Below, piece by piece: positions 1-60,392 of a DNA stretch of 64,000 bases (positions are counted from its first letter, which is position 1; each line of letters starts with the position of its first letter). Both the position numbers and the translations under genes were made by a program. The notes beneath the pieces are model-generated. The model was not told the DNA's origin, did no database searches, and saw nothing but the letters and a program-made list of their open reading frames with translations. The DNA is from Candidatus Gastranaerophilales bacterium (lineage in GTDB: Bacteria > Cyanobacteriota > Vampirovibrionia > Gastranaerophilales > Gastranaerophilaceae), in assembly GCA_944325105.1 (NCBI GenBank), contig CALUYW010000011.1, positions 1-64,000 on the forward strand, in the 5' to 3' direction.

Positions 1-1205
1 ACATCCTTAGGCAGAACATTAATTGTCTTCTCCATCACAGCACCTGAGGAGCCACCTGCGCCGCTATATCTGTTCATGCGATTTAATACTTTGTAACAAC
101 GGGTAGATACGGCTACTTGTGTGCCGCTAGATGTATTTCCTACTCCGTAACTTTTTACCCCATTAATATACAATACTCTTGTACCACTTGAATCGAGTAA
201 TGCGTACTGGCCACCCATGCATTGATTTGAACCAGCCCCAATACATTTGCTACTTAAACCACTTTGTGGAATATAATCCATGCAGGTATTATTCGCACGG
301 TCTGTTGTTGAACAATAGCTCTGAAAATCAAGTAATTTTGCATAGTATTCAAAATCTTTTTCAATTATTTTTTTAGCTATCTTTTCAGTTAGTAAAGCAT
401 ATGTTCCTTGCAATTGTATATTATTGTTTGTTCCAATCCATTGACACACCGTTTTGGCTGCTGAATAAGTACATATGGGCCTATTAGCTCCAGTTCTCAA
501 TACACCATTTACATAAACATCGGTATAGCAAGATTCTTGCGGACTTGTTGTACATTTTGGTGCACCCGAACTTGTCCAACAACATGAACCATCTGGACAT
601 TCCTCTCCAGGATTTTTAACCCTACCTTTATTATCGTATCCTAATTTAGTGCCAAATATTAGATTTTCGCCGGTTATACATATATCTTGTTCATCACCAC
701 TAGCTCTTATTAGTTCCAAAATTGGATATCCGATATTCAATTTAGTCAAATTATCTTTTGCCAGTAAACAACCGTGAGCCAGTTCCTTCCCAGTACTTCC
801 CCCTCCACCTCCACCGGCGCCGGTTATTGTTAATGTAACCTGATTAACACCAACAGGAACAGTCCAACTTGTATTATTAGTTATACTTATACTCTTATCA
901 ACATAAGTAGAACCTCCTCCACCTCCTGCTCCTCCTGAACCTTGAATAAATAATGTATTAATACCGACAGGAACATCAAATGTATAAGTACCCGGATTGG
1001 TATATATCTCTAACCCCTCTCTATTATCAGTCTGTACGGTAATATTATCTTTCATCCTCTTTGTTATAACAGGAGCTAACGCCACCATAATAACCGATAT
1101 CACAAGTACTGCAGTTAAAAGCTCTGCAAGTGTAAAAGCCTTAAATTTAGTCCCCCAAAGTGCTTTTTTTCGCAGCACAAAATAGGGCTGAATGAGTTTT
1201 TTCAT
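1..1205 (-). CDS. type IV prepilin-like surface protein (C-terminus cut by window edge)
   Basis: The frame is open from the ATG at 1203-1205 to the window edge (about 401 codons), so the C-terminus is missing. The product has a basic 23-residue leader and then AFTLAELL (residues 23-30) followed by a hydrophobic helix to about residue 44. This is the class III signal of type IV pilins and pseudopilins, cleaved before Phe24 by a prepilin peptidase. Alanine replaces the usual glycine at -1. The mature part has two similar blocks (about 76-99 and 114-137), each a VPVG-type strand followed by a run of glycines. Further on are many cysteines and repeated CxxGG-like turns, which suggests a disulfide-rich exposed domain. 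It is probably a minor pilin or pseudopilin assembled by machinery that includes the PilT ATPase at 16.4-17.5 kb. No close family is recognised for the C-terminal part. Confidence 0.85.
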   Translation of the reverse strand, partial: MKKLIQPYFVLRKKALWGTKFKAFTLAELLTAVLVISVIMVALAPVITKRMKDNITVQTDNREGLEIYTNPGTYTFDVPVGINTLFIQGSGGAGGGGGSTYVDKSISITNNTSWTVPVGVNQVTLTITGAGGGGGGSTGKELAHGCLLAKDNLTKLNIGYPILELIRASGDEQDICITGENLIFGTKLGYDNKGRVKNPGEECPDGSCCWTSSGAPKCTTSPQESCYTDVYVNGVLRTGANRPICTYSAAKTVCQWIGTNNNIQLQGTYALLTEKIAKKIIEKDFEYYAKLLDFQSYCSTTDRANNTCMDYIPQSGLSSKCIGAGSNQCMGGQYALLDSSGTRVLYINGVKSYGVGNTSSGTQVAVSTRCYKVLNRMNRYSGAGGSSGAVMEKTINVLPKD

Positions 1206-44748: not shown

Positions 44749-44754
44749 TAGTTT

Positions 44755-44827
44755 GGGCGGTTAGCGCAGTTGGTAGCGCATCACATTGACATTGTGGGGG
44801 TCGCTGGTTCGAGTCCAGTACTGCCCA
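44755..44827 (+). tRNA. tRNA-Val (GAC)
   Basis: A complete 73-nt cloverleaf: acceptor GGGCGGT/ACTGCCC, anticodon stem TCACA/TGTGG, anticodon GAC at 44788-44790, T arm GCTGG/CCAGT and discriminator A. CCA is not encoded. The acceptor could be extended by flanking GTTT/AAAC. No clear promoter lies directly upstream; transcription may start before the 92-bp upstream unit. Confidence 0.95.
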
Positions 44828-44830
44828 AAC

Positions 44831-45009
44831 TAAAATATACCCTCCCCGCGACCAAATTGCAGACAAGCTGCATAACCTCACTAAGGTTCGGTTAGGGTCA
44901 ACTCCAGTGACTTGCCAAACTAAAATATATTCCCCCGCGACCAAATTGCAGACAAGCTGCATAACCTCACCAAGGTTCGTTTAGGGTTAACTCCAGTGAC
45001 TTGCCAAAC
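44831..45009 (+). repeat. two tandem ~90-bp repeats downstream of tRNA-Val
   Basis: The units at 44831-44920 and 44921-45009 differ by a few substitutions and one missing base. Each starts TAAAATATA, contains small hairpins (TGCAG/CTGCA and AACCT/AAGGTT) and ends CCAGTGACTTGCCAAAC. That end resembles the tRNA-Val 3' end CCAGTACTGCCCAAAC, which is also followed by TAAAATATA. No protein-coding signal was seen. Confidence 0.85.
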
Positions 45010-45070
45010 TAAAATATACTCTCCCCATCCGGGCAATTTCATTATTTTTTCATCAAGTAAAATTAATTTT

Positions 45071-56146: not shown

Positions 56147-56496
56147 TGGAAAGCAGGCTGATAATCGCGCAAGGTCTTTTGACTTTGTGAGGAAAGTCCG
56201 GACATCCAAAAAGGCAGGTTGCTTGGGAAAGCCAAGTGCGCGTGAGCGTGAGGACAGTGCCACAGAAAAGTAGAATGCTCGACCTTAAGTGGTATAGAGC
56301 GATTGTGCAACGGCGGGGTAAGAGCCTACCGCTGAGGCCGTGAGGTTTCAGGCATGGTAAACCCCAATCGGATGCAAGTTTGAATTTGCAAGAAGAGTGC
56401 CTTTTCTCGTTTTGTTTTTGACAAAAATTGCATAAAAAAACGCATTAGACAGATGATTATCTTAAAGACAGAATCCGGCTTATTGCAGGCTTTCCA
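56147..56496 (+). ncRNA. rnpB: RNase P RNA, bacterial class A
   Basis: The catalytic RNA of RNase P, about 350 nt, which removes tRNA 5' leaders. The universally conserved segments are present: GAGGAAAGTCCGGAC (56189-56203) and ACAGAATCCGGCTTA (56468-56482), which pair to form P4, plus CAGAAAA and the GTAAACCCC region. P1 is closed by TGGAAAGC (56147-56154) with GCTTTCCA (56489-56496). The region 56400-56460 is A/T-rich and variable. A hairpin that can terminate it follows at once. Confidence 0.95.
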
Positions 56497-56552
56497 CCAA
56501 AACCCCAAAATACTTACACTATTTGTTTAGTGTTGTATTTTGGGGTTTTGGC
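56497..56552 (+). terminator. long hairpin directly after RNase P RNA
   Basis: CCAAAACCCCAAAATAC (56497-56513) pairs perfectly with GTATTTTGGGGTTTTGG (56535-56551). An inner ACACTA/TAGTGT stem extends it. It lacks a long terminal T run but is very stable. It may end rnpB transcription or protect the 3' end. Confidence 0.65.
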
Positions 56553-56772
56553 AAAAGGATCGCTTCAGTTGTAGGCGAAGAATAAGCCGTACAAATGAAG
56601 TGTGCGCAGACGGCGTAGTAAAATCAAGTCTTTTAAAGACTTTGATTTTCAAGCCGACCAGAATGGCGTACGGGAAGGCGAGGAGCCTTGCCGTTAGCCC
56701 GTAACTGGACTGGTATCCAAAATACTTACACTATTTGTTTAGTGTTGTATTTTGGGGTTTTGGCAAAAGGAT
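56505..56772 (+). repeat. 212-bp unit after rnpB flanked by 56-bp exact direct repeats
   Basis: The 56 bp at 56505-56560 recur exactly at 56717-56772. Between them, 156 bp contain nested inverted segments: AAAATCAAGTC.../GATTTT, ACGGG/CCCGT, AAGGC/GCCTT and CCAG/CTGG. No open reading frame is present. The unit begins and ends in the rnpB 3' hairpin, so it looks inserted into, or duplicated from, the rnpB end. Confidence 0.85.
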
Positions 56773-56780
56773 AAAAGCTA

Positions 56781-56990
56781 TTATATTCCAAGTTTGTCAA
56801 TCAATTTTGACAGGTTATTGTGTAAACTTTCAATTTGTGCTTGCTGGATAAAAATAAGGTCACTAAATTCTTTTTCGTTCAAATCGGGAAAACAGCCGCC
56901 GTTTAGTTCGGTCATTACTTTTGACAGTGTTCTTATCAAAGAAAAATCATTGTTTATTTTATTTATTTCTTCTGCTGAATTTATTTGCAT
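56781..56990 (-). CDS. small uncharacterised protein (69 aa)
   Basis: This protein is not recognised. It has 69 residues, mostly helical and acidic (SAEEINKINNDFSLIRTLSK, EKEFSDLIFIQQAQIESLHN), and no signal peptide. AAAGGGG precedes the ATG at good distance, which supports a real gene. It may be a small coiled-coil regulator or partner protein. It is divergent from the tandem putative DNA-binding genes. Confidence 0.65.
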   Translation of the reverse strand: MQINSAEEINKINNDFSLIRTLSKVMTELNGGCFPDLNEKEFSDLIFIQQAQIESLHNNLSKLIDKLGI

Positions 56991-57088
56991 AGCTGCCCCT
57001 TTATCTTAAATGATATATATTCATAAACAATAATAAATATCCTTTAAAATAACATATTTAGATATTATCGTCAAATTGTGTACAAGAT

Positions 57089-57097
57089 TGCTATAAT
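57089..57097 (+). promoter_or_regulatory. extended -10 promoter of the first tandem putative HTH gene
   Basis: TG-C-TATAAT ends 6 nt before the ATG at 57104, placing the transcription start at or next to the start codon. Confidence 0.65.
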
Positions 57098-57103
57098 TAC
57101 ATA

Positions 57104-57310
57104 ATGGATATAAGAAACGAAGTTAAGTCTTTAATTTTTAGAGAGGGTTATTCTATAAAAAGAATAGCTTTTGAAATTTCGCAGCTTCTTGGCAGAAATA
57201 TAAGCGCAGATACGCTTTCTCATAAACTTATAAATAATACCTTACGCTACCAAGAAGCTAAAGCTATAGCTGAGATTCTCGGTTATGAGTTAGAGTTTAA
57301 GAAAAAATAG
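57104..57310 (+). CDS. small HTH-like protein, first of a tandem paralogous pair
   Basis: A 68-residue basic protein. Predicted helices (RNEVKSLIFREGYSIKRIAF, ISADTLSHKLINNTLRYQEA) fit a compact helix-turn-helix of lambda-repressor-like type. It shares about half its residues with the next gene, including KSLIF-EG, TLRY-EAKAIAEILGY-LEF. Function is unknown; it could be a regulator or a nucleoid-associated protein. The mRNA is probably leaderless because an extended -10 ends 6 nt upstream and no ribosome-binding site is present. Confidence 0.75.
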   Translation: MDIRNEVKSLIFREGYSIKRIAFEISQLLGRNISADTLSHKLINNTLRYQEAKAIAEILGYELEFKKK

Positions 57311-57339
57311 GACAGTTTTTTAAAATACGATATGAAGTT

Positions 57340-57546
57340 ATGAACACAAGAGAAGAAATTAAAAGTTTGATATTTAAAGAGGGTAGAACGATAAATTTTA
57401 TAGCAAGAGAACTCTCGAATAAATTTGGTAAGGAAATTACACCTAATAATTTATCGCTTAAGCTTGCACGTGACACCCTTCGCTACAAAGAAGCAAAAGC
57501 CATAGCAGAGATTCTTGGTTATAAATTGGAATTTAGAAAATACTAA
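57340..57546 (+). CDS. small HTH-like protein, second of a tandem paralogous pair
   Basis: A 68-residue paralogue of the preceding protein with the same length and helix pattern (REEIKSLIFKEGRTINFIAR, LKLARDTLRYKEAKAIAEIL). The pair arose by local duplication. Differences concentrate in the middle (GRNISADTLSH versus GKEITPNNLSL), the probable recognition region, so the two may bind different sites. The ribosome-binding site is weak; a terminator follows. Confidence 0.75.
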   Translation: MNTREEIKSLIFKEGRTINFIARELSNKFGKEITPNNLSLKLARDTLRYKEAKAIAEILGYKLEFRKY

Positions 57547-58368: not shown

Positions 58369-58457
58369 GGAGAAATGGCCGAGTGGCTGAAGGCGGCACC
58401 CTGCTAAGGTGTTATGTGGAGAATTCTGCATCGAGGGTTCGAATCCCTCTTTCTCCG
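58369..58457 (+). tRNA. tRNA-Ser (GCT)
   Basis: A complete 89-nt class II tRNA: acceptor GGAGAAA/TTTCTCC, long variable arm, anticodon GCT at 58403-58405 in CTGCTAA, T arm GAGGG/CCCTC and discriminator G. CCA is not encoded. A short terminator hairpin follows. Confidence 0.97.
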
Positions 58458-58829
58458 ATTTTTAAACTCCCTTTTCGGGAGTTTTGTTTTAGGGATGAGA
58501 ACCCGAGAAGAGGGTGAGAATCCTACGACAAATCCAAAATCTTTGATTTTGTGATTTGACGAATGCAATAAGCGTAAAATTTCAAGGACGAAGTCCTATG
58601 AAATTGAGAGTTTGCCTCTTTCTCCGATTTTTAAACTCCCTTTTCGGGAGTTTTGTTTTAGGGATGAGAACCCGAGAAGAGGGTGAGAATCCTACGACAA
58701 ATCCAAAATCTTTGATTTTGTGATTTGACGAATGCAATAAGCGTAAAATTTCAAGGACGAAGTCCTATGAAATTGAGAGTTTGCCTCTTTCTCCGATTTT
58801 TAAACTCCCTTTTCGGGAGTTTTGTTTTA
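58458..58829 (+). repeat. 169-bp tandem repeat (two full copies plus partial) after tRNA-Ser
   Basis: Two copies (58458-58626 and 58627-58795) appear identical, and the first 34 bp recur at 58796-58829. Each copy starts with the tRNA-Ser terminator (AAACTCCC/GGGAGTTT hairpin) and ends with CCTCTTTCTCCG, exactly the tRNA 3' end. Inside are hairpins AAAATC/GATTTT and AATTTCA-AGGAC/GTCCT-TGAAATT, and CGAGAAGAGG (58504-58513) that can pair with the CCTCTTTCTC end. No protein-coding gene is present. Confidence 0.92.
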
Positions 58830-60392
58830 GTCCTGTACTCCCTTTGTCTTCTTAACAAGCACAAGCATGGGTATCAATAAAAACGTAGCAAAAGCAAACC
58901 ACCTGAATGTATCAACATAGCCCCACAGTCTTGCCTGTTGCAAAAGTTCCTGATAAATGCTCGCCATAGCCATTGACTGCGCGGTCACGGTATCTGCAGT
59001 CGCTTGCATAAAGCCTTGCGTCATAGACGCCAGTTTTGCCACATAAACATCATTTGAAAAGTTCAGATGTCCTGACATCATATGCTGGTGAGCTTGTGCA
59101 AAGCGAGAAACCATAGTAGTACCTATTGATGTACCAATCGCACCGCCTATGTTTTTTACAAGGTTTTGTAAACACGACGCATTTGCCATATCTTTGTTGC
59201 TTACAGTTGAGCAAGAAAGCGGTACAAGAGGCGTTAGTGCCAAGAATATCCCAAGCCCGTATAATATATTTGGTACGGCTATGATATTTAGGTTTATCTG
59301 CAAATTAATCATGCCAAAGAATAAACTTCCAAAACCAAGCAGTGTAAGCCCTATCATGGTTATTCTTCTATCGCCTATATGTTTTGACAGTATAAGATAG
59401 GCTATAACCCCTGATATACTACCTATGCCTCTTGAACCCATAGAAAGACCGCTTAAATATGCACTATAGCCCAAAAGTGTTTGCAGCATTGAGGGTAAAA
59501 GCGCGGCTGATGCTAAAAAGACAGCCATTAATATTACTTGAATTAGTGTGCCGAAGAAATAAGTTCTGTTTTTTAAGACACTTAAATCAAGCAGCGGGTA
59601 TTCTTTGTTTTTAAATTGAGATACAAAGAAAAGAATGGCGCAAATTGCAGAAAATGCGCTCAGCCAGCATATCCACGCTGCACCGAACCAGTCTGCGTCA
59701 TTACCTTTATCAAGTACGATTTGCAGGCTTATAAGCCATAGGGATAAGAAAGTAAGTCCTTTTACGTCTATTTTTATGCCGACTTGTTTTTTTGCATACG
59801 GCGGGTCTTCAAGGAGTTTTTTTGCAAGAATAACGCAAAGTATACCTATAGGTATGTTGATTAAATATATCCAAGGCCACGACCAGTTTTCGGTAATCCA
59901 GCCCCCAAGTACAGGCCCTAAAAGCGGCGCAAAAACGATTACCATACCAAACATAGCCATGGATTTTGGTCTGTCTTTGCCCGAGAAATTTTCAAGCATA
60001 ATTGATTGACCTAAAGGCAGAAGTCCTCCGCCTCCAAGACCTTGAATAAACCTGAATATTACAATCTCAGGCATACTTCGAGCCACTGCGCACAAAAATG
60101 ATGAAACAGTAAAGACAATAATTGAAACAATAAAATAATTCTTTCTGCCAAGAACTTTTGCCATCATACCGGCAAGCGGGATTGCAATACCTGAGGCTAT
60201 AAGATAACTTGTTAAAACCCAAGTGGATTCGTTGTGACTTACGGACATTGAGCCTGCAATGTATATAAGAGCTACGTTTGAGATGGTTTCATCCAAAACA
60301 AACATAAAAATTGCAAGCATAACGGGAATTACCCCAATCCAAGGGTTTATAGAGGGTTTCCACTCTTGCTCTTCAATTACTGCTTCACTCAC
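58827..60392 (-). CDS. DHA2-family (EmrB/QacA) MFS multidrug exporter
   Basis: This 521-residue protein has 14 predicted membrane helices and the DHA2 signatures GGWITENWSWPWIYLINIPI (motif C region), FRFIQGLGGGGLLPLGQ and SRGIGSISG. It exports drugs or lipophilic compounds with proton exchange. No EmrA-type adaptor is adjacent. It starts with GTG (60390-60392), overlapping the galE stop by 4 bp, so the two are coupled. Confidence 0.93.
   Translation of the reverse strand: MSEAVIEEQEWKPSINPWIGVIPVMLAIFMFVLDETISNVALIYIAGSMSVSHNESTWVLTSYLIASGIAIPLAGMMAKVLGRKNYFIVSIIVFTVSSFLCAVARSMPEIVIFRFIQGLGGGGLLPLGQSIMLENFSGKDRPKSMAMFGMVIVFAPLLGPVLGGWITENWSWPWIYLINIPIGILCVILAKKLLEDPPYAKKQVGIKIDVKGLTFLSLWLISLQIVLDKGNDADWFGAAWICWLSAFSAICAILFFVSQFKNKEYPLLDLSVLKNRTYFFGTLIQVILMAVFLASAALLPSMLQTLLGYSAYLSGLSMGSRGIGSISGVIAYLILSKHIGDRRITMIGLTLLGFGSLFFGMINLQINLNIIAVPNILYGLGIFLALTPLVPLSCSTVSNKDMANASCLQNLVKNIGGAIGTSIGTTMVSRFAQAHQHMMSGHLNFSNDVYVAKLASMTQGFMQATADTVTAQSMAMASIYQELLQQARLWGYVDTFRWFAFATFLLIPMLVLVKKTKGVQD

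Follow-up and report, generated by a model that had tools for sequence, protein, structure and literature searches.

Hairpin-folding cassettes between duplicated RNA-gene ends in gut Gastranaerophilales

Just downstream of the RNase P RNA gene in a draft genome of Candidatus Gastranaerophilales (G000, in a genus that takes in Ca. Galligastranaerophilus), a 56-bp sequence is followed by a second copy of itself. What do the two copies delimit? A sequence-only reading of the 64,000-nt stretch analyzed here (the window) had proposed a unit bounded by exact repeats of the rnpB 3' hairpin region and enclosing a 156-nt middle, probably one folded RNA, and had seen in a shared word a hint of common origin with a unit beside tRNA-Ser. 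The repeat itself was borne out: 56505-56560 and 56717-56772 (both plus strand) are 100% identical over 56 nt at a spacing of 212 (CCAAAATACTTACACTATTTGTTTAGTGTTGTATTTTGGGGTTTTGGCAAAAGGAT), and when 64-kb sequences were simulated 20 times with a first-order Markov model, the longest nearby repeat was 15 nt. Across the whole window, exact direct repeats of at least 20 nt within 600 bp are found only beside RNA genes, namely, tRNA-Val (44844-45018), rnpB, and tRNA-Ser.

The rnpB site, empty and filled

The host gene encodes a class A RNase P RNA (56149-56498, plus strand; Rfam RF00010, 200 bits). What is repeated is indeed a hairpin at the 3' end of rnpB; however, it does not belong to the RNase P RNA, which ends at 56498, but is the terminator just after it, a long hairpin with an inverted repeat at 56497-56551. 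The first copy comprises most of this hairpin plus GGCAAAAGGAT; in the second, the left arm is truncated, its outer portion being absent. When the 156-nt middle was checked against Rfam with gathering and relaxed thresholds, no known RNA family scored above the gathering level, and only chance-level matches were returned beside rnpB and the tRNA.

The same site differs among relatives. G004 has a single terminator and no cassette. In G003 (L034), one component of the middle, module B (GGATGT..GGGCGTACGGGAAGGCGAGGAGCCTTGCCGTTAGCCCGTAACTGGACT), stands alone between two terminators, the other component, module A, being absent. G007 carries a diverged B between two copies of its own terminator version, in which GC takes the place of AC/GT in both arms of both copies, and G011 has a terminator and a diverged B, after which the contig ends. 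Modules A and B occur together at rnpB in G000, G013, and G001; a plain downstream terminator follows in G013, and a further insertion lies past the second terminator copy in G000 and G001. The single terminator without a cassette in G004, B alone in G003, and the diverged B in G007 together indicate an insertion flanked by a long target duplication. On this comparative evidence, the rnpB unit is best read as a DNA cassette, non-coding and folding into hairpins, that inserted at the hairpin-rich 3' end of the gene and is flanked by its duplicated target. The 56-bp repeats that bound the unit are that target, which is present once at the empty site of G004.

Since all of the genomes are metagenome assembly drafts, and several contigs end at tRNA repeats, an assembly or chance artefact has to be considered. 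Independently assembled genomes of several species, however, contain the same units, with differences particular to each species, and the repeats are far longer than chance allows, chance having already been excluded; we regard an artefact as negligibly probable.

The further insertion of G000 adjoins the second target copy at 56773-57546 (no strand assigned) and holds three small ORFs, making it a possible gene-bearing cassette. Its start, AAGGATAAAGC (AAGGAT(A)AAAGC), is common to G000 and G001, and the segment is missing in G003 and G013. Two of its 68-aa proteins are paralogues, and a Pfam search of its small ORFs gave no match. Separately, within rnpB itself, the P12 region has a hairpin-rich insertion of ~130 nt in G007 (L044, ~700-870, plus strand), G004, and G011, and a short form in G000.

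Two modules, a conserved fold, and the tRNA-Ser unit

In a DNA search of relatives, each half of the 156-nt middle turned up without the other. Module A (56561-56661, plus strand) consists of two hairpins (GCTTCAGTTGTAGGC../..GCCGTACAAATGAAG and AAAATCAAGTC../..GACTTTGATTTT). The right part of module B (56662-56716, plus strand) forms a nested stem (GGC/GCC, GG/CC, AAGGC/GCCTT) and ends in AACTGGACTGGTAT, and its left end, AAGGAT, coincides with 56555-56560 within the first target copy. In G001, and in an unrelated B array of G013 (C5), module A (CGCTTCAGTTGTAGGC...) sits in B right after GGATGT; in G000, where A follows GGAT(GT), two bases are lost at the junction. Module A is also found beside tRNA-Val in G005, G008, and G012, where its orientation relative to host transcription is opposite to that at rnpB. 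Module B is dispersed in the genus, occurring behind tmRNA and in three-unit arrays of 108 bp near tpiA, where it is flanked by duplicated hairpins. The middle is therefore not one RNA but a composite, a mobile-looking cassette B with module A nested inside.

That the middle folds was correctly anticipated, and the fold is conserved in relatives, even though it belongs to two modules and not to a single RNA. Folded as RNA, 56561-56710 is more stable than its shuffles (z -6.7), as is the unit with both terminators folded as DNA (z -11.6). In an alignment of 17 B modules (A2), 92% of cells are paired, compared with 28-46% when the partners are slid, and 9 of 11 pairs have changed on both sides across the genus (e.g., GGGC/GCCC, GCCC/GGGC, GAGC/GCTC, and GTCC/GGAC), so that folding among relatives is maintained through compensatory changes. 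The nested pairings listed in the sequence-only reading fared unevenly: CCAG/CTGG and AAGGC/GCCTT are present in the predicted fold, whereas ACGGG/CCCGT pairs as ACGG with CCGT; relatives conserve GGGC/GCCC and AAGGC/GCCTT; CCAG/CTGG is present only where module A is inserted.

The companion unit lies behind tRNA-Ser(GCT) (58369-58458, plus strand). Its target, comprising the 3' strand of the T-stem, the acceptor, and the terminator, is present in three copies (58446-58492 on the plus strand, 58615-58661, and 58784-58830), between which lie two identical copies of a cassette, S (58493-58614, matching model R1 with 134.8 bits, and 58662-58783, both plus strand). S begins with an inverted T-arm-like sequence, GGATGAGAACCC, followed by a T-arm-like one, GGGTGAGAATCC, and then by two covarying hairpins; 96% of its cells are paired, and 11 pairs show changes on both sides. 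The invariance of its 27-nt central hairpin in alignment A1 is partly by construction, as the sequences were chosen by that pattern; covariance-model matches found without it have the same architecture in other letters.

Beyond tRNA-Ser, S is found behind tmRNA, tRNA-His, and tRNA-Asn; in further genera and in a second family of the order (f6), the model places it after tRNA-Ser isoacceptors and tRNA-Gly. In G003 and G013, the 47-bp end of tRNA-Ser is single copy and S is lacking; as S is present at this gene in G001, G004, G006, and G010, which are more distant, its absence may be a secondary loss. The strong conservation of some cassettes, such as that of S in two families of the order, might reflect selection for a function and not mobility.

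Kinship between the rnpB and tRNA-Ser units is real, but it resides in their architecture. The word CGAA..AATAAGC(C)GTA, offered as the hint of shared origin, is conserved in the relatives of neither element and occupies non-equivalent positions, and the best local alignment of A with S was reached by 25-140 of 500 shuffles; an origin shared via this word is thus unsupported.

Similar hairpins were seen elsewhere. The 27-nt bulged hairpin of S, AATCCAAAATCTTTGATTTTGTGATTT, recurs in intergenic regions of Firmicutes (Emergencia and Eubacterium sp. S30_Bin6; L177, L185, L195), in another, multi-hairpin context. In G005 and G014 (L198-L209), several of the abundant palindromic repeats GTCACCCTGAACTTGTTTCAGGGTCT hold an inserted hairpin, TTTTGCCAAAATCTTTGATTTTGTGCAAAA, with a core and bulge as in the S hairpin but inside another palindromic repeat.

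Cassettes at the ends of tRNA and tmRNA genes

Units of this kind are widespread in the genus. We counted the tRNA and tmRNA genes whose end is overlapped by an exact repeat of 15 nt or more: 19 of 37 in G000 and 16 of 26 in G003 qualified, compared with none of 221 control positions; unit frequencies were drawn from tRNA neighbourhoods. Outside the genus, the counts were 0/33 (G020), 2/33 (G045), and 0/29 (G057). Our literature search on Gastranaerophilales and on tRNA-end repeats found nothing relevant. In the window, two degenerate units with a period of 89 (44844-45026, plus strand) lie behind tRNA-Val(GAC) (44754-44828) and are apparently decaying members of the same class.

The geometry, host end, cassette, host end, is common to rnpB and the tRNA/tmRNA units. 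On both sides of the RNA gene, the duplicated stretch begins 4-20 nt inside it, usually at the 3' strand of the T-stem (3' side) or the 5' strand of the D-stem (5' side). The target duplication, ~40-56 bp long at rnpB, reaches 20-60 bp beyond the RNA gene, into the locus-specific terminator; the cassettes are ~50-150 nt long, folded, and recurring. An inverted copy of the arm at which the duplication begins, in many cassettes the host's own T- or D-arm, lies within the first 40 nt of the middle in 27 of 52 units (P < 0.05; ~2.6 expected; e.g., ACAGGATTTGAAC behind tRNA-Pro and TACCAACTGAGC before tRNA-Val); the other half have no significant inverted arm. At rnpB, the palindromic terminator itself supplies it. 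Some terminator-like hairpins that follow protein-coding genes carry cassettes as well.

At 5' ends, the units mirror those at 3' ends and point outward, an arrangement that argues for a cause at the DNA level and against one at the RNA level. The units might instead be transcribed and kept as functional small RNAs for a folded RNA with a tRNA-like or terminator end, a role also proposed for the RtT RNA of E. coli. Compensatory changes, the retention of S at tRNA-Ser across genus boundaries and in family f6, and the annotation of E. coli RtT as a small RNA (RttR) all speak for such RNAs, but the mirrored units lie on the other strand, at both rnpB and tRNA-Ser a terminator separates host from cassette, closely related genomes differ by gain and loss of cassettes, and module A faces opposite ways relative to transcription at rnpB and tRNA-Val. 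Our analysis makes this explanation rather unlikely.

tRNA and tmRNA genes, at their 3' ends, are classic attB sites, and repeated 3' ends would be expected if the units were attachment-site remnants of phages or islands. Against such an origin, the duplication extends past the RNA gene into a terminator specific to the locus and is single copy at empty sites, which does not fit attachment by a tyrosine integrase, whose repeat would be limited to the portion of the RNA gene mirrored in attP; the cassettes are short (~50-150 nt), folded, and recurrent, and their 5' counterparts are mirrored. In addition, a search of viral contigs for the exact S hairpin pattern found none, and several carriers have only two Xer-like recombinases. 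We consider phage or island remnants very improbable.

The same cassette families are reused at different host genes, and they are arranged modularly. Behind tmRNA (L088, L091), S and another cassette, Q, stand in opposite order in G007 and G013. Behind a tRNA-His (L191, 1150-2900), there are four cassettes, two of which are S and one of which has a 55-aa ORF; the array includes cassettes of ~490 and 640 bp, and each cassette closes with a degenerate repeat of the tRNA end. This modularity, the larger cassettes with small ORFs in the same arrays, the conserved bulged hairpins, and a burst limited to one lineage would suit non-autonomous cassettes moved, integron-like, by a recombinase or transposase that recognizes folded T-arms, D-arms, or terminator hairpins. 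Yet none of the enzyme families tested is shared by every carrier. A Y1 transposase (PF01797) was detected in 1 of 15 genus genomes and not in G000; reverse transcriptase (PF00078) was absent from G001, G003, G007, G008, G011, and G013, three of which are 97-99% complete; and tyrosine recombinases number six in G000 but two each, Xer-like by length, in G001, G002, and G003. None of the three fits all carriers as a common driver. The cassette ends vary at every host gene, and the units share no constant core of the kind that integrons have in the R box. A dedicated structure-recognizing enzyme is the main alternative to the copying process described below, and we see it as possible but doubtful.

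The reading that we prefer, to which we assign a probability of about 0.65, is that the rnpB unit belongs to a genome-wide set of hairpin cassettes that border tRNA, tmRNA, and rnpB genes, spread by a DNA process. The cassettes would spread and multiply through events on folded single strands at the arms, most likely through template switching at hairpins while DNA is copied in replication or repair. Copying would pass from the arm to the anti-arm, through the cassette core, and back to the arm, with the end copied again; once identical units stand in tandem, they could grow or shrink in number via ordinary recombination between the duplicated ends.

Should spread at the DNA level be correct, tRNA-type genes would attract insertions via folded arms on either side, without the usual integrases; if an enzyme were found, it would represent a new way of targeting RNA genes.

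Comparison with known repeats

BOX, RUP, Correia, and RPE elements are short, non-coding, structured, dispersed, and modular repeats. The cassettes share their small size, lack of coding capacity, and structure, but target duplications in those elements are short or lacking, and the elements are not known to be fitted to the ends of RNA genes, whereas the cassettes show both a long duplication and such tailoring. REP/BIME elements with their RAYT (Y1) transposases are likewise short intergenic bulged hairpins in modular arrays. Here, by contrast, 14 of 15 genomes have no Y1 transposase, target duplications are long, and ends are fitted to the host. Integrons (attC, IntI) likewise have cassettes in arrays that can be reordered, and their folded sites bulge on one side, whereas the present units are anchored at RNA genes and, by our reading of them, their junctions are host-arm sequences that differ per gene in place of the integron core GTTRRRY. 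Judged by length, no dedicated integrase stood out among the tyrosine recombinases of several carriers. A group II or retron-like element is at odds with the six genus genomes in which reverse transcriptase is missing.

The closest parallel is in E. coli. Its tyrT repeats were described in the 1970s and were for decades an isolated oddity. The 178-bp repeats of tyrT-tyrV (RtT, RF00391, RttR) are tandem units that start with the tRNA 3' end (AATCCTTCCCCCACCACCATCACTTTCAAAAG); a folded middle is closed by an inverted T-stem (GGGGAAGGAT...ATCCTTCCCC), and a direct T-arm-like AAGGTTCGACTC follows. The plan is the one seen here: tRNA end, inverted T-stem, T-arm-like piece, hairpins, tRNA end. Even the change of TCGAA to GAGAA (GGATGAGAA) in the inverted arm is shared with the tRNA-Ser cassette; in E. 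coli K-12 (L276, 1110-1650), the inverted T-arm reads GGATGAGAAG. The tRNA-Ser unit has this arrangement, with an RNA-gene 3' end, a middle closed by an inverted arm, and head-to-tail copies, and at rnpB it takes the form T-X-T, in which the palindromic terminator supplies the inverted arm. RF00391 had no match above the cut-off in the 15 genus genomes, nor in the window, with a positive E. coli control; because the arrangement is the same but the family model does not match, the cassettes resemble the E. coli repeat in arrangement and are not members of the RtT family.

One study notes that RtT-like elements are dispersed in Enterobacteria (PMC2965389). The region upstream of E. coli gatY contains naRNA4 and not RtT.

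We tentatively propose, at somewhat less than even odds, a class of mobile DNA that reads hairpin arms at the ends of structured RNA genes, inserts outward at either end, duplicates its target over tens of base pairs, and rebuilds its own end as an inverted host arm; on this view, the same process left a lone relic in E. coli tyrTV. The two systems differ in sequence family and in extent: here, a whole genus of gut Gastranaerophilales has a tyrT-like arrangement at about half of its tRNA-type genes, at both ends and with several cassette families. These families, together with empty sites and nested insertions, make it possible to test by comparison how such repeats arise.
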